Source: a virus
Length of the DNA: 48,312 nucleotides
Direction: 5' to 3' (one strand)
Virus record (IMG/VR): IMGVR_UViG_3300027706_000012
Span: 1-48,312 of that record
Below, piece after piece: positions 4,958 to 34,797 of this stretch. The notes under the pieces are model-generated. The model was not told where the DNA came from, ran no database searches, and worked only from the letters and a program-made list of their open reading frames with translations. The translations under genes were made by a program, and so were the position numbers. The number at the start of each line of letters is the position of its first letter. Position 1 is the stretch's first letter.

Positions 4958-5226
4958 ACAAGCAACCTGATTTACCTGTCCCCTTGAACTTGATGCGTTT
5001 AGAGGTGGACTATCTGGAAAAGCAGACTCCTCAGCTTGTAGAGGCTCTGCGCTACTTTCTCGATGGTGATTGGCAGGAAGTGCTGCAGCCTGGTACTCTT
5101 GGCTGGTTGCGTCTGGACAATCTGCGTTTGTTCACCCAGTTCGTTCGCCAGTCGTGCGAGCGGATCGAGGGCGTGCTTGAACTGATGGAGGAAAGGCGAA
5201 AGAAGGAGGAACAAGAGCGTGAGTGA
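4954..5226 (+). CDS. Small protein of unknown function
   Basis: 90 residues, predicted mostly helical with a charged C-terminal tail (MEERRKKEEQERE). Start codon overlaps the stop of the HAD gene by 4 bases, and its end overlaps the next start by 8, so translation is probably coupled. GAGGGAAG gives a good ribosome site. Family not recognised. Confidence 0.6.
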   Translation: MNKQPDLPVPLNLMRLEVDYLEKQTPQLVEALRYFLDGDWQEVLQPGTLGWLRLDNLRLFTQFVRQSCERIEGVLELMEERRKKEEQERE

Positions 5227-5566
5227 AACCAAAGTGGTCTATCAGGCTGGTGGCCAGCCTGACCGCATGCCGGATGTGGATCGCATCATTCAGCATTGCA
5301 CTACCGATATCGAGCGGAATGCTCGCCAGATGCTTCTCGCCGTTGCCCGTAAAGATCAGGGCGCGACGATGCTGTTCCGATATCAAATGAGTCGGATGGA
5401 AGCTCATCTCTCCAACTTTATCCATGAGTTGGGAACTGCCTCCATCGCGGCGAGTACGGATGGCTATCCCGACTCGACCGCTACGGTGATTGACGCTTTT
5501 TTAGAAAAGCTGCACCTGGTCGATCAACCAGGATCTCATCGGGAAGGAGAAGAGAGGAAGCAATGA
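5219..5566 (+). CDS. Small protein of unknown function
   Basis: 115 residues starting with GTG inside the end of the previous gene. Helical; DIERNARQMLLAVARKDQGA is the most regular segment. AAGGAGG lies just before the start. No catalytic motif seen. Confidence 0.6.
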   Translation: MSETKVVYQAGGQPDRMPDVDRIIQHCTTDIERNARQMLLAVARKDQGATMLFRYQMSRMEAHLSNFIHELGTASIAASTDGYPDSTATVIDAFLEKLHLVDQPGSHREGEERKQ

Positions 5567-5898
5567 AAACACGCTTTCGGCACAACTCGGCTCCGGCTCG
5601 AGAGCCACAAGAATCCGGCTTGAAGCAGATGTACGAACGTCTTGAGAAGTTGCGCAAGGCCCGCGCCATAGAGTTCTCACTGGCCTCGGATAGCGCGCTG
5701 CTGGTCTGGTGCGTCCAGACTCGTGAGGCGCTCGAACAGAAGCGAGAGCGCGAACTGAACTACATCAGTCGTCGCGCAAGCAAACATATTCATACGCCTA
5801 CCGATGAGGCGTATGAGTCTGATCAAGTGTTGTTGGAACAAGTGATAGCCTTTCTGGATATGGCTATCGAGAAGGGCAAGGAAGCGGGGTATCTATGA
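5563..5898 (+). CDS. Small helical protein of unknown function
   Basis: 111 residues, very rich in Arg, Lys and Glu with heptad-like spacing around REALEQKRERELNYISRR; probable coiled coil. ATGA overlaps at both ends show tight coupling in the operon. Confidence 0.6.
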   Translation: MKTRFRHNSAPAREPQESGLKQMYERLEKLRKARAIEFSLASDSALLVWCVQTREALEQKRERELNYISRRASKHIHTPTDEAYESDQVLLEQVIAFLDMAIEKGKEAGYL

Positions 5899-6206
5899 GC
5901 GAAGAGAAGAAAGATGATCCTCAGCTTCAGGCGATGGAGCATGATCTTGCTGAGGTGCTTGAACTGTTTGCGAAACGGCTGGCCCCGGATGTCCTGCTGG
6001 TCATGCGCTCGCGTACCAGGGCAACCTCGGTAACACGGCTCGAACGAGCGCAATTGGATGCCACACATGCCTGCCAGGATGGTATGCTGTTTCTCACGGA
6101 ACTCAATAACGTGGTGTTGAGACGCGATCTTTCCGGGCTGTATCGATTGTTGGAGAGTTGGAAGAAGAGGTTAAGTGAAGATGAACCTGGTTCCCGAGGC
6201 GAGTGA
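5895..6206 (+). CDS. Small acidic helical protein of unknown function
   Basis: 103 residues. Starts MSEEKKDDPQLQAMEHDL and overlaps the preceding stop by 4 bases. Similar in size and spacing to its neighbours. No motif recognised. Confidence 0.6.
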   Translation: MSEEKKDDPQLQAMEHDLAEVLELFAKRLAPDVLLVMRSRTRATSVTRLERAQLDATHACQDGMLFLTELNNVVLRRDLSGLYRLLESWKKRLSEDEPGSRGE

Positions 6207-6480
6207 TCTATACCGGGCGACGTGCCCGGTGTGTCGATCAACCTTATGGTTGTCTCAGCAAGACATGACCTTTTTTCAAGTGATTGGTCAACTGGTACAA
6301 GGCTCCGTCCAGATTAAGCATGAGCCTTGCAGTTGTTGGATGGAGATCGTGGAGATCTCCAACACGGAACGGCTTTCGATTCTGGCAACGGAGAAGCATC
6401 CTGCTGTATCCGGTGCCTTCTCTGGTGGAGAACAACGATATGAACAACAACCCGTTTTTCGACGGATTAAAACCGCTTAA
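6181..6480 (+). CDS. Small cysteine-rich protein
   Basis: 99 residues from ATG 6181 (GTG at 6175 is in frame and also possible). CPVC at the N-terminus and CSCW some 35 residues later could bind zinc. Overlaps the previous gene by 26 bases and the next by 41. Function unknown. Confidence 0.5.
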   Translation: MNLVPEASDLYRATCPVCRSTLWLSQQDMTFFQVIGQLVQGSVQIKHEPCSCWMEIVEISNTERLSILATEKHPAVSGAFSGGEQRYEQQPVFRRIKTA

Positions 6481-30659: not shown

Positions 30660-31178
30660 TTAGATGAGGCTATCGAGATATGCCTCGTAGGGGTCCTGCA
30701 TGTCGTAGGCTTCGGCAGGGTCGGGCTGCTCTGGCTCGCCTTCCTCACCCTCATCCTCGCCGTAGTAGGCTGCCATGCGCTTCATCTCCGCGTCTGATGG
30801 CTGGCCGCCTTCGGCTTCGACCAGCTCGGCAATGAGCTGGTCGAGCTCGGTATAGAACTGTGCAAGCGCCGTTTCGTGCTGCTCTTTGTTGTGGCTGGTG
30901 CCTGCTGCGCAAAGAGCGCAATTCAGGTCCTGCGCGAAACCAGCAAAGAAGAGATTCAGACCTGCGGCGATGCGCGCTTTATGGCTGGCTGCGATAGAGT
31001 CGACATGCTGGCGGCGCGTGTGGAAAACGGCTTTGAGGCAATGCTCGCAGTCGAGGTTGAGATCAAAAGGCTGCGCAACCAGGGCCGCGTGTTGCTCTGG
31101 TGTATGCGCCATTGGCTGCCAAAAGCAGCAATAGCACAGGCTGGAGTAAACGAAGGTCTGAGTCTTGAGAGTGGTCAT
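30660..31178 (-). CDS. Cysteine-rich protein with acidic tail
   Basis: 172 residues from ATG 31178, with AAAGGAA upstream. CEHC and CALC pairs plus an N-terminal CYCC cluster suggest metal binding; residues 130-172 are very acidic (GEDEGEEGEPEQPDPAEAYD). First gene behind the promoter at 31246-31276. An in-frame start MAL of an overlapping leader frame is present at 31227. Confidence 0.55.
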   Translation of the reverse strand: MTTLKTQTFVYSSLCYCCFWQPMAHTPEQHAALVAQPFDLNLDCEHCLKAVFHTRRQHVDSIAASHKARIAAGLNLFFAGFAQDLNCALCAAGTSHNKEQHETALAQFYTELDQLIAELVEAEGGQPSDAEMKRMAAYYGEDEGEEGEPEQPDPAEAYDMQDPYEAYLDSLI

Positions 31179-31245
31179 GAGTGAAATTCCTTTCTTTGAG
31201 GCCCAAGATGGGCGTTTTGAGGGCCATCCGTTTTTTGCCCCTCTG

Positions 31246-31276
31246 TATATAGAACGATTTGGATACGTAAAAGTAA
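31246..31276 (-). promoter_or_regulatory. Leftward promoter, normal copy
   Basis: TTACTT (31276-31271), 17-base spacer, TCTATA (31253-31248). The leader carries GGCAAAAAACGGATGGCCC, which recurs behind the promoter at 29046. This promoter is the reference copy for the adenine-stripped one at 32034-32062. Confidence 0.65.
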
Positions 31277-31386
31277 CGTAAAAATTGGCTAAACTGGCTC
31301 TATTCCTGCATCCATGCCACATTGTTCTCTTGTGTACAGGATGAGGCATGAACCTCTTGTGTAGCGCAAGCAAGGCAAGCACGCCA

Positions 31387-31405
31387 GGGGTGGGGCGGGG
31401 AGGGG
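31387..31405 (+). other. Perfect G-quadruplex motif, copy 1
   Basis: GGGGTGGGGCGGGGAGGGG: four runs of four G with single-base loops. A near-identical motif is at 32235-32253, so the pair brackets the SLOG gene. Both lie on the + strand, the template strand for the leftward transcript. Confidence 0.7.
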
Positions 31406-31441
31406 CGAAACCTGGGGGAAGCACGAACGAACTGGGGACAC

Positions 31442-31473
31442 AAAAAAGCCGCCGACCAGGAAGGCCAGCGGGT
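31442..31473 (-). terminator. Terminator of the SLOG gene
   Basis: On the minus strand a 9-bp stem, CCGCTGGCC with GGTCGGCGG (G-T pairs included), is followed by CTTTTTT. It stands 17 bases after the SLOG stop codon. Confidence 0.6.
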
Positions 31474-31489
31474 CTTTTTTGCGGGGCGA

Positions 31490-31969
31490 TCAGCCCCAAA
31501 GCGAGGGGGCCGACACGCCAGAAGCAGCCGCGCAGGAGCAGGAAACGACGAACACTGGAACGCCCATTTTTTTGGCGAGAGCCACAGAAGCCGCCGAACC
31601 GCGAGAACCGCAGCAGGAAAAGACGACGGCGCAAGAAACCGAGCGCAGCAGCGCAGCCGAGCGAGCAACACCAGCGCCCCGACCGAGCGAGGACCAGGCG
31701 GCAGGGAAGACCGAGACCGACAAACCACGCGAACGGGCCGCAGAGACAGCCAGCGCGTCAGCGCCAGAAGCACCACCGGAGACGACCACCGAACCGGCAG
31801 GCAGGGCCGCAACCAGGGAGCGAACCAGCGAGGCAGGCGCGGAAGGAGACGAACCCCAGGCGCGAGACCCGAGCACCGCGACACGGGAACCAGCCGGAAG
31901 CGAGCGAACGAAAGAAACAGCGGGCGCAAGGGCCGCAGGAACGGAGGCAGAAGAAGAGCAAGAGACCAC
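31490..31969 (-). CDS. SLOG-family (DUF2493/YspA-like) nucleotide-binding-type protein with adenine-free coding strand
   Basis: 159 residues from GTG 31969 (TTG 32020 also in frame). SLOG motifs: RVAVLGSRAW, VVVSGGASGADALAV, VFPAAWSSLGRGAGVARSA, VALAKKMGVPVFVV. Compared with the usual family pattern, charged positions are changed (SRDW to SRAW, RN to RS). Adenine is almost absent from the coding strand, so the protein uses F L S C W P R V A G plus one Asp, two Lys and one Met. The start is A-free with a GGGGG ribosome site at a spacing of 7, and lies 58 bases after the predicted transcription start, as in the normal promoter copy (63). SLOG proteins bind nucleotides or ligands and some act in phage defence; the ligand here is unknown. 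Confidence 0.7.
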   Translation of the reverse strand: MVSCSSSASVPAALAPAVSFVRSLPAGSRVAVLGSRAWGSSPSAPASLVRSLVAALPAGSVVVSGGASGADALAVSAARSRGLSVSVFPAAWSSLGRGAGVARSAALLRSVSCAVVFSCCGSRGSAASVALAKKMGVPVFVVSCSCAAASGVSAPSLWG

Positions 31970-32033
31970 CGGACACCCCCAGAAAGAACGCCCACCCCGC
32001 GCAGGAGGGGCCAGGAACAAAAGCGCATCTACT

Positions 32034-32062
32034 TATAGAACGAGCAGGAAACGGAAAAGTAA
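32034..32062 (-). promoter_or_regulatory. Leftward promoter, adenine-stripped copy, driving the SLOG gene
   Basis: TTACTT (32062-32057), 17-base spacer, TCTATA (32039-32034). In a 31-base alignment with the promoter at 31246-31276, 26 bases agree and the five differences all fall on adenines of the normal copy, replaced by C, T, T, G, C. The A residues in the -35 and -10 hexamers are kept. Confidence 0.75.
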
Positions 32063-32580
32063 CGCGCATAGAAAACAGACCGACCGGACGGAAAAGGCGC
32101 GAAGGCAGGGAAGGCCCGCGACGAAGGAACAACAACACGCGACCAGCCGCGCCACAGCACCCCACCTGTGTTTTCAAAAAGGGAACGAGCGCCGACCAGC
32201 CGCGCCCACAACGCGAAAAGGCGACGGCACGCGAGGGGCGGGGCGGGGAGGGGCGAAGGGAACGAACGGCACGCAGGCAGCCGGAGCGCGACGAGGGCAG
32301 CCGGGCGACAAGCGCGAAGGCGCCAAAAGGAGGGGAACGACACCCGCGCGGCACGAGCAACCAGGCAAAGGAAACAAGAGCAGGGCAGCCGGGCGAAAAG
32401 GCCGCGCGCCGCGAAGCCCCGCCCAAAACGCGCACCAGGCCGCCCGAGACGAGCGGAAACCCACCCAGGCCGGGGCGCAAGACCAAGACGCCGACAAAAA
32501 AACGCCGCGAACGCCGACAACCGCGCAGGAAACAAGAAACGCACAAAGACCCCCACCACCAACAACACAGCGAGCAGCAC
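32063..32580 (-). other. Adenine-free leftward segment without assignable product
   Basis: Three minus-strand frames are open through almost all of it. One ends at a TGA at 32174-32176, one of the few places where A is kept; another reads through LKTQVG there. None matches a known protein to me, and composition (Arg, Cys, Pro, Phe) does not single out a coding frame. It could be an untranslated leader, a second reduced-alphabet gene or a structured RNA. Confidence 0.5.
32235..32253 (+). other. Perfect G-quadruplex motif, copy 2
   Basis: GGGGCGGGGCGGGGAGGGG, one base different from copy 1 at 31387. The identity extends into a following CGAA. Confidence 0.7.
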
Positions 32581-32803
32581 TACAAGAAAAAAAATTGCAT
32601 GTCAAGGACGTAGTGGAATGGAGTGTAGTGGAATGGAATGGAGTGTAGTGGAATGGAGGGAAATGCCGCGTTGTTTCGATGGCGAGAAAGCTTAAGTGTT
32701 GAAAGCGGCATTTCCCGGAATGGAACGGAACGGAATGGAATGGAACGGAACGGAATGGAACGAAGCCGAAGGGTATCCTTGACATGCAATTTTTTTTCTT
32801 GTA
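32581..32803. promoter_or_regulatory. Divergent promoter region built on a 28-bp inverted repeat
   Basis: Perfect arms 32581-32608 and 32776-32803, each containing TTGACA and a T8 tract pointing outward. A second perfect 12-bp pair, GGGAAATGCCGC (32658-32669) and GCGGCATTTCCC (32705-32716), is nested inside. The remaining sequence is a pentamer satellite of GGAAT and GGAAC units on both flanks. Fires towards the adenine-free unit on the left and the methyltransferases on the right. No gene in this 348-base gap. Confidence 0.7.
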
Positions 32804-32928
32804 CCATGTTAAGTGTTGTGGGTGTGGGTCGTCATCACGCTATCATCCCCCTTTTGCGCTGCCACCTTGCCCCTTTTTTCAAAAAAAATTCATGGTGTTT
32901 TTCAACCCTCTTTATACTAAAAGCAAAA

Positions 32929-33741
32929 ATGCTCACCGTTGGTTCACTCTTCACCGGCATCGGCGGCATCGATCTTGGCCTGGAGCAGACTGGTGGCTTT
33001 CGTATTGCCTGGCAGGTTGAAATCTCTCCATATTGTTGTCGCCTTCTTGCTTATCGATGGCCGCATATTCCCCGCTATGGCGACATTTGCCAGCTTGATT
33101 TCTCTCAAATGGAGCCGGTTGATGTGCTGGCTGGTGGCTTTCCGTGTCAGGATGTGAGCCTTGCTAATCGTCGCCGGGAGGGACTTGATGGAGCGCGATC
33201 TGGATTGTGGGGCGAATTTGTGCGTGCCATTGTTGCGCTTCGACCCAGATATGTCCTCGTGGAAAACGTTGACGCCCTGCGTTATGCAGGGACAGCACAA
33301 AAAGCGGCTGCCCCTCTTGGTCGAATACTTGGCGACCTGGCCGGAGTCGGGTATGATGCGGAGTGGTGTCGTTTATCGGCAGCCGCCCTCGGTTACTCCC
33401 ACTATCGCCCCCGTCTCTTCATTATTGCCTACCCCGAAGGCTCACGACGGGAGGCGCTCTTATGTGACATCCCAATGGGCTATTTCACGCAACGAGAAGG
33501 GCCTTCCGTTCAGTTGGATCGGCGTGGGTGCGTACTGGCATCACTTGAGCAAAGCCTACGGCAACCCTCGGTTTTCGGAAGCGATCCTGGGATTCCCTCT
33601 CGACTGGACCGCCTTACCGCCCTCGGAAACTCGGTGATGCCGGAGATGGCTCGTGTGATTGGAGCATGCATTCTTGTCGCAGAAGCAAACGAAGCAAATG
33701 AAACAGAGTCACGAATGGTATACGCCCCCGCGCTACCTTGA
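32929..33741 (+). CDS. DNA cytosine-5 methyltransferase (Dcm type)
   Basis: 270 residues, ATG 32929; a TATACT box only 11 bases upstream and no ribosome site suggest an almost leaderless message. Motif I is GSLFTGIGGIDLGLE, motif IV GGFPCQDVS with catalytic C73, motif VI ENV (112-114), motif VIII RPRLFIIA, motif X LTALGNSVMPEMA. The target-recognition region between VIII and X is short (about 55 residues). Transfers methyl from S-adenosylmethionine to cytosine, likely to protect element DNA from host restriction. A second plausible protein is encoded in another frame of the same DNA. Confidence 0.9.
   Translation: MLTVGSLFTGIGGIDLGLEQTGGFRIAWQVEISPYCCRLLAYRWPHIPRYGDICQLDFSQMEPVDVLAGGFPCQDVSLANRRREGLDGARSGLWGEFVRAIVALRPRYVLVENVDALRYAGTAQKAAAPLGRILGDLAGVGYDAEWCRLSAAALGYSHYRPRLFIIAYPEGSRREALLCDIPMGYFTQREGPSVQLDRRGCVLASLEQSLRQPSVFGSDPGIPSRLDRLTALGNSVMPEMARVIGACILVAEANEANETESRMVYAPALP
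33161..33637 (+). CDS. Overprinted frame inside the cytosine methyltransferase gene
   Basis: 158 residues entirely inside the Dcm gene, in a different frame. SSWKTLTP, EYLATWPESGMMRSGVVYRQ, SSLLPTPKAHDGRRS and NPRFSEAILGFPLDWTALPP match a recurrent signature of phage Dcm-associated sequence (WPxSGM, LPTPxAxDG, GFPxxWT), which in other phage methylases lies just before motif X. Both frames therefore look family-like. It may be translated on its own or be a frame-shifted relic; no strong ribosome site seen. Confidence 0.4.
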   Translation: MLIVAGRDLMERDLDCGANLCVPLLRFDPDMSSWKTLTPCVMQGQHKKRLPLLVEYLATWPESGMMRSGVVYRQPPSVTPTIAPVSSLLPTPKAHDGRRSYVTSQWAISRNEKGLPFSWIGVGAYWHHLSKAYGNPRFSEAILGFPLDWTALPPSETR

Positions 33742-34261
33742 GGTAGTGCGTCAGCTTCTGGGCGTGATTGATCTGGACCCTGCAAGCTGCGCGGAGGCAA
33801 ACACACTCGTTCAGGCTCGCTGCTTCTATGATCGAGAGATGGATGGGCTAATGAGGTTGTGGCCTGGACGAGTCTATCTGAATCCTCCCTATGGCAAGTA
33901 TGGCTCATCCTCGCAGCAGGGGCGTTGGATGGCGAAGCTACGAGAGCAGTTTGAGGCTGGTATCACAGTGGAGGCGGTGGCGCTGGTGAATGCGGCGACG
34001 GATGCGAAATGGTTTGCTCCGCTCTGGCGTTACTCTCTCTGCTTTGTCGATCATCGTATCAACTTCATTGATGGCTCTGGCGGGTGCGCGGGGAGATTAT
34101 CTCAACGCGCAAGCTGTTTTGTGTATCTTGGTACTCGCTCCGATTCCTTCGCTCGTCTCTTTCGCCCTTTCGGCCATGTGGTGTGTCCTGCTGTATCGTT
34201 TGAGGAACGCGAGAACGGTCGGGTGCGCGTCAGCTTTTCAAGAACCCGCCGCAGCGGATAG
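33698..34261 (+). CDS. Phage DNA N6-adenine methyltransferase
   Basis: 187 residues from ATG 33698, overlapping the Dcm gene by 44 bases (TTG or GTG codons further up are possible). EWYTPPRYLEVVRQLLGVID and LDPASC are the S-adenosylmethionine-side motifs; YLNPPYG is the catalytic (D/N)PPY motif; FVDHRINFIDGSG follows as in the phage Dam family (PF05869 type). Protects DNA or marks it. The 3' end lies in the first copy of a 55-bp repeat. Confidence 0.85.
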   Translation: MKQSHEWYTPPRYLEVVRQLLGVIDLDPASCAEANTLVQARCFYDREMDGLMRLWPGRVYLNPPYGKYGSSSQQGRWMAKLREQFEAGITVEAVALVNAATDAKWFAPLWRYSLCFVDHRINFIDGSGGCAGRLSQRASCFVYLGTRSDSFARLFRPFGHVVCPAVSFEERENGRVRVSFSRTRRSG

Positions 34262-34439
34262 CCTTGCTCCCGGCAGGGTTGCGCCACGCCCTTCCTTTTT
34301 CTCTTTCAAGATAGGCAGGTGGCGCGCTACCTTGAATGCTGCGCTAGTTGACCAGGCTGCCTTAAACGCGGTAACGGTGGATGTGCGTCAGCTTCTAAGA
34401 GACCCGCCGCAGCGGAATAGCCTTGCTCCCGGCAGGGTT
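34226..34439 (+). repeat. Duplicated 55-bp segment ending in TTGCTCCCGGCAGGGT
   Basis: Copies at 34226-34280, overlapping the adenine methyltransferase stop, and 34385-34439. They share CGTCAGCTT, CCCGCCGCAGCGGA and CCTTGCTCCCGGCAGGGTT. The last 18 bases occur a third time at 34677-34694 and in degraded form near 34715. Confidence 0.75.
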
Positions 34440-34451
34440 ACTTTCAAGAGA

Positions 34452-34504
34452 GAGATGCCCGACTGGCCTACCCCTTGTACTTTAAAGGGCCAGTCGGGCA
34501 TCTC
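34452..34504. repeat. Hairpin 1: 17-bp perfect inverted repeat
   Basis: Arms 34452-34468 and 34488-34504, 19-base loop. First of three large hairpins in the 536-base gap 34262-34797, which has no convincing gene. Confidence 0.7.
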
Positions 34505-34527
34505 ATTCCTTATGGTCTTTAAAGGCA

Positions 34528-34590
34528 GTGAAAGCATGATGATCTTTCTTCCTTTTTAAACTAGAAAGGAAAAGATCATGATGCTTTCAC
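34528..34590. repeat. Hairpin 2: about 27-bp imperfect inverted repeat
   Basis: GTGAAAGCAT at 34528 pairs with ATGCTTTCAC at 34581-34590; the arms continue inward with few mismatches to an A/T-rich loop. Confidence 0.65.
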
Positions 34591-34617
34591 CTTCTTTGTG
34601 GTAAGAGTTTCGCGGAG

Positions 34618-34667
34618 CATGATGCCCTCATTCCTTTTTTTACTATCAAGAGAAAGAGGGCATGATG
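34618..34667. repeat. Hairpin 3: 12-bp perfect inverted repeat
   Basis: CATGATGCCCTC (34618-34629) pairs with GAGGGCATGATG (34656-34667). CATGATG also occurs in hairpin 2, so the hairpins may share an origin. Confidence 0.65.
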
Positions 34668-34797
34668 CGTAGCGTTCCTTGCTCCCGGCAGGGTCATTAC
34701 TTAACAGTTCCGCGAATGCGTGCCTGCCCCCGGAGGGTAACTATTTAAACAGATTTCGCGCAGGCGTTCCTATGCGGGGAAGGTGGGAATGGTGGGG

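Follow-up and report, generated by a model that had tools for sequence, protein, structure and literature searches.

Why is one strand of about a kilobase of a phage genome almost free of adenine? We examined this question in the window, the whole IMG/VR virus record IMGVR_UViG_3300027706_000012 of 48,312 bases. We know of no described process that strips adenine from the coding strand of a natural gene.

Composition and limits of the tract

The + strand contained exactly 14 T in the 960 bases 31621-32580, for which the binomial probability is ~1e-88 given a T content of 23.6% in the window. Three T-free runs were located on this strand at 32175-32580 (406 nt), 31759-32027 (269 nt) and 31574-31757 (184 nt), and the longest one well outside the tract was 44 nt. 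Recounting thus returned the same values as the initial annotation, both for the 14 T and for the 406-base run. Over the complete A-depleted unit (31362-32580, − strand), the sense strand carried 34 A in 1219 nt (2.8%), mostly clustered in signals. When the composition was checked in stretches of 300 nt, the depletion was confined to the tract: the count of A or T was at least 36 elsewhere in the window and fell to 0 for A in the tract.

A 156-nt A-free pattern gave 394 matches in the window, every one of those listed lying inside the A-poor region, and none in each of 100 dinucleotide shuffles; by these shuffles and the binomial test, chance is ruled out as the cause. The leader (32181-32580) contained 140 C, 137 G and 123 T on the sense strand, about one third each, bearing out the earlier statement that one base is missing and the other three are common. 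Because of these proportions and the high 8-mer complexity of the tract (0.92-0.97), it is not a repeat; low complexity, repetition and GC-richness were all excluded as causes by the T-free runs together with this complexity. The RNA family search on the tract gave no match, and its predicted RNA folding showed no excess over shuffles (z −0.7).

The initial annotation had equated the limits of the tract with a transcription unit, which is approximately right. At the 5′ side the last + strand T is at 32581, where the A-exclusion begins within the -10-like hexamer of the presumed leftward promoter, immediately after the first A of this hexamer. At the 3′ side the low-A tract overruns the terminator by ~85-110 nt, to 31362, with just three A's from 31433 to 31391.

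A SLOG gene in two phages

Since A-free DNA has almost no stop codons, open reading frames alone are uninformative here. The coding features of the tract are as follows.

31490-31969, − strand: YspA-type SLOG gene, 159 aa, TGA stop (PF10686, phrog_289, codon-position conservation and AlphaFold)
31976-31980, − strand: GGGGG, candidate A-free Shine-Dalgarno sequence, then TGTCCG and GTG (inspection)
31556-31573, − strand: patch of A's, AAA AAA ATG ... CCA, not all demanded by the protein (unexplained)

The gene matched PF10686 with an E-value of 2.4e-8 (34.1 bits against the curated cut-off of 28.2) and phrog_289 with 7.6e-16, and its product aligned over nearly the full length with chromosomal Ktedonobacteria orthologues and with an A-free phage homologue. 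The AlphaFold model (pLDDT 89.1, pTM 0.83) matched DprA, LOG and DUF2493 structures, the best viral fold matches being DUF2493/YspA proteins, and a SLOG Rossmann-like fold is predicted for the product. The initial annotation had described the leftward product as an RNA of only U, G and C apart from a few positions; the sense strand is indeed nearly A-free, but the conserved SLOG protein that it encodes was overlooked. Ten amino acids (A, C, F, G, L, P, R, S, V and W) make up 155 of the 159 residues. The gene contains 10 A in 480 nt, eight of them in the one patch (31567-31573 and 31556).

The A-free homologue belongs to IMG/VR record 3300031520_000006 (L004), a related temperate phage whose portal, capsid, terminase and other proteins are ~54-70% identical. 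Its SLOG gene is located at 5572-6336, the corresponding place in the phage, and the sense strand shows A-free runs of 394, 170 and 139 nt from ~5111 to 6397. Through a six-frame search this copy scored 26.2 bits against PF10686, just under the cut-off of 28.2. Relatives of the terminase occur in Dictyobacter, Ktedonospora and another Ktedonobacterium, which indicates hosts among the Ktedonobacteria.

Alignment to L004 and to the chromosomal orthologues places the probable start codon at the GTG at 31969. It is preceded by GGGGGTGTCCG in the window and by GGGGGTGTCTC at the same place in L004, so that even the presumed ribosome-binding site would be A-free. The window protein keeps GGASGAD (including the D of GAD), with RN changed to RS, WDG to CCG and GT to GS; the L004 protein keeps GGA-x-G-[AV]-D, RN and WDG-x-S-x-GT. 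In both phages A replaces D in FPADW, giving FPAAW. Three chromosomal Ktedonobacteria orthologues (L045, L046 and L047) have an ordinary composition and have lost the GGA-x-G-D motif.

Among the homologues examined elsewhere, viral and chromosomal, the base composition was ordinary. Homologues of ordinary composition, which had been proposed as a counter-argument to the depletion, were thus found only at a distance, and the nearest homologue is A-free on the same strand. An assembly or sequencing artefact is hardly credible: the two known A-free loci are independent, and although both are held by metagenome-derived records only, these records are too diverged to share reads, are depleted on the same strand of a homologous gene, and show coding conservation and intact signals. 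Together these observations refute an artefact in practice.

Searches of IMG/VR with the SLOG motif pattern returned L004 as the sole other A-free locus, and the promoter-plus-A-free pattern returned L004 alone. No similar DNA was found among annotated phages, no SLOG gene occurred within 10 kb in the prophage relatives found through the terminase, and the leaders of the window and L004 showed no homology above shuffles. In the Chloroflexota and Ktedonobacteria genomes compared, the A-free stretches among the matches listed were shorter than at the two phage loci and mostly repetitive or less complex. Literature searches, within a partial coverage, revealed nothing relevant on adenine-free genes.

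Several side observations concern these sequences. Within the A-poor tract, a 31-nt segment at 32227-32257 (− strand) is 94% identical to 31379-31409, 848 nt apart; despite this segment in common, the profile search for a second SLOG copy in the leader was not significant. A 64.7-kb Ktedonobacteria contig (L033, G036:C5) contains a T-poor, partly repetitive region of ~400 nt at ~1380-1800 with a GTTACACCTCGACGTAACG palindrome. The L004 phage contig carries a CRISPR array of eleven 37-nt repeats (L042:9789-10553) ~1 kb from the A-poor unit, and its spacers had no significant match to the window or the other loci compared.

Constraint and age of the depletion

Over 128 aligned codons, identity between the window and L004 genes was 72% at codon position 1, 75% at position 2 and 36% at position 3, where chance alone would give 32%. 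High identity at the first two positions and near-chance identity at the third indicate that the SLOG protein is under purifying selection and that the synonymous sites are saturated. At four-fold sites, A accounted for 0.7% (1/140) in the window gene and 0% (0/225) in L004, against 19.5% and 21.1% in the neighbouring genes; given the A content of the neighbouring genes, the chance of zero A at these sites is ~1e-13 for the window and ~1e-23 for L004. As the synonymous sites are saturated and yet both genes are A-free, the A-exclusion has been sustained throughout the divergence of the two phages and does not stem from one chance event. Changes found in both genes, among them FPADW to FPAAW, suggest that the common ancestor was already A-free.

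The remaining bases were also shifted. Taking the neighbouring genes as a fair baseline, the T:C ratio at four-fold sites was 1.17 against 0.34 in the window (p 8e-8) and 0.95 against 0.56 in L004 (p 0.008).

Transcription signals and the remaining adenines

The signals in and around the tract are as follows; the promoter assignments were made partly by inspection.

32581-32608, − strand: left arm of an inverted repeat, with TTGACA (32605-32600), 17 nt and TAGTGC; presumed leftward promoter (inspection)
32776-32803, + strand: right arm, TTGACA-17-TACCAT (hexamers 32779-32807); rightward promoter (consensus scan)
32023-32065, − strand: internal promoter-like element, the A's of TTAC and TATA kept and most other A's of the ordinary copy exchanged for G, C or T (comparison with the ordinary copy)
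31237-31278, − strand: copy of this element with ordinary composition, upstream of gene 30660-31184 (sequence comparison)
31449-31480, − strand: terminator hairpin CCGCTGGCC/GGTCGGCGG with a T tail; the flanking A6 is kept and pairs with the T tail
32167-32174, − strand: cluster of residual A's in the leader, TTTTTGAAAACACAGGTGG (unexplained)

The inverted repeat formed by the two promoter arms is perfect over 28 nt, and the presumed leftward promoter at 32581-32608 failed the consensus scan. DNA downstream of the rightward promoter is not depleted. The initial annotation had assumed a single unit from a promoter at 32581; since the essential A's of the internal element are retained, a second transcript probably starts there.

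The intervening region (32609-32775) is an odd divergent promoter region, in which TGGAA-type tandem repeats flank a 15-bp hairpin (GGGAAATGCCGC/GCGGCATTTCCC). Farther to the right, the match of a C5-cytosine methyltransferase at 32929-33741 to its Pfam domain is limited to the N-terminal half, and a C-terminal-like stretch (LLPTPK..., GFPLDW) is found at 33161-33637 in another frame, so this gene may be frameshifted. Repeated CTTGCTCCCGGCAGGGT segments alternate with long hairpins at 34230-34750.

The two promoter-like copies differ at six positions as far as the -10 box. Each of these is an A in the ordinary copy, the replacing bases being G, C, T, T, G and C, and every non-A base is unchanged; past the -10 box there are further, mixed differences. 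The equivalent pair in L004 shows three differences only, one of them A to T, and in an imperfect inverted repeat that straddles the 5′ edge in L004, several differences between the arms consist of an A turned into G or an A lost. The loss of a single base from a single strand recalls pan-edited cryptogenes, in which one base is missing from one strand, and A's might likewise have been deleted from the DNA and put back at the RNA level, in the way that trypanosome mitochondria edit U's into their transcripts. Such editing is very improbable here, as the promoter copies differ by substitution and not by deletion, and the A-free frame, without any insertion, aligns colinearly with normal SLOG proteins and gives a SLOG fold when modelled.

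The segment 31379-31405, beyond the terminator, matches the end of the coding sequence in the L004 gene, which suggests that the terminator may have been inserted later. Ahead of its stop, the L004 gene has seven codons with an A, for E, D, E, N, D, T and Q, mostly at residues conserved in the family: D of GVD, N of RN, D of WDG, T of GT and a Q in the terminal region. Further A's are retained in the stop codon and in the internal promoter-like element, and in the window also in the terminator hairpin. Most of the residual A's sit at functional positions, namely promoter-like elements, stop, terminator and conserved codons. The leader cluster at 32167-32174 is possibly a ribosome-binding or protein-binding signal.

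Origin of the depletion

Selection for an A-free RNA, mutagenesis directed at adenine and evasion of an enzyme specific for adenine had been listed beforehand, with none chosen, and all three are still live candidates. We favour a lasting A-to-N mutation of the sense strand of the transcribed unit over selection for an A-free messenger, with a probability of about 0.48. In the proposed process, the sense strand of the SLOG and leader transcription unit would be under a long-standing, A-specific, randomising mutation (A to any base), and purifying selection would preserve just those A's on which a signal or an amino acid depends. The agent might be an A-infidel reverse transcriptase, supplied by host or phage, which returns a copy of the transcript to the locus that it came from, in a self-templated process related to mutagenic retrohoming; alternatively, an adenine-specific lesion on the exposed non-template strand might be responsible. 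The process would be self-limiting, because few targets are left once the A's are gone, and could thus coexist with a functional gene. That the cause is mutation rather than selection is an inference, and so is any agent proposed for it.

An A-free messenger would be required if the mRNA had to survive, or be made, during an adenosine-specific activity: an adenosine-specific RNase (type III CRISPR effectors of the Csx1 type are an example), an adenosine deaminase or a toxin. Depletion of ATP, or an action of the SLOG protein itself on adenine nucleotides, could have the same effect. Each A would then shorten the life of the mRNA, and A's would be purged even at the cost of altering the protein. 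An RNase of this kind exists, since PfuCsx1 is an adenosine-specific Csx1 that cuts after adenosines (PMC9704534). Cas10-like matches, all under the family cut-off, were found in 25 of 47 Ktedonobacteria genomes, the SLOG relatives include LOG, which was crystallised with AMP, and ACA-less messengers used with MazF offer an artificial analogue. The remaining A codons of L004 spend few A's per residue encoded, and the strand specificity is explained as well by this selection as by mutation. However, the upstream leader and the internal promoter spacer are A-free too, the window gene retains A's that it could do without (A7 and CCA) and no longer has some of the conserved residues, and A-purging alone does not predict the strong T:C shift at four-fold sites. 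We therefore regard selection for the messenger as doubtful, though a serious contender.

The T:C shift favours mutation, because A-purging under reversible mutation leaves the C:G:T proportions unchanged, while A-to-N recycling drives C, G and T towards equality, the pattern present in the leader. The changes RN to RS and WDG to CCG in the window are expected if mutation pressure outweighs function. A-to-N mutation would thus explain the promoter substitutions, the equalisation of C, G and T, the depletion of the leader and the loss of conserved residues. Against it, the avoidable A7 and CCA in the window gene are awkward, as they ought not to persist under strong A-to-N mutation; the promoter-copy substitutions number only six and the independent loci only two; and selection for an A-free mRNA would likewise retain A's only where needed. 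No recognisable mutator was found among the scanned proteins.

The tract could also be the ordinary target (variable repeat) of a diversity-generating retroelement with its reverse transcriptase outside the contigs. We consider this improbable: a typical variable repeat is far shorter than this tract of ~1.2 kb, the template repeat normally resupplies A's, an ungapped scan of the window found no A-containing template copy of the tract (the promoter copy was the sole match), and the PF00078 reverse transcriptase is absent in six frames from both phage records, which may be incomplete. The feature in its favour is A-to-N substitution, the defining chemistry of such elements (PMC12875486, PMC3240598). 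The complete statement, that a transcription-bounded, adenine-directed and continuous mutation reduced one phage gene to three letters and left a folded, conserved protein of about ten amino acids, by a mutator other than a diversity-generating retroelement, is put forward tentatively.

Mutation or selection, either would be new. If the mutation reading is true, there would be a natural targeted mutator, specific for a single base, one strand and one gene, with a new boundary rule; if the messenger is selected to be A-free, it would represent a natural way of evading attack at adenosines. On either reading the locus amounts to a natural reduced-alphabet experiment, a SLOG protein under purifying selection with almost only ten amino acids; questions on small amino-acid alphabets become directly testable, and the few retained A's would be a footprint of essential signals and residues.

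Comparison with known systems

The window protein resembles the YspA/YAcAr SLOG family of phages (PF10686, DUF2493) in profile, in the GGA-x-G-[AV]-D core and in the predicted Rossmann-like fold, whereas the members examined apart from the two A-free copies have a normal composition and a 20-letter alphabet. Diversity-generating retroelements are alike in that sense-strand A's are substituted to G, C and T, here in six promoter-copy changes, a small sample; they differ in that the phage tract was found without a reverse transcriptase or template repeat, the whole unit is affected, and its A's are exhausted and not resupplied. Trypanosome cryptogenes share the absence of one base from one gene strand, but the phage tract shows substitution and its frame lines up with normal homologues as it stands. 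The ACA-less messengers employed together with the MazF toxin share an mRNA without the nuclease target; these are artificial and lack one triplet, whereas the phage tract is natural and lacks a whole base.
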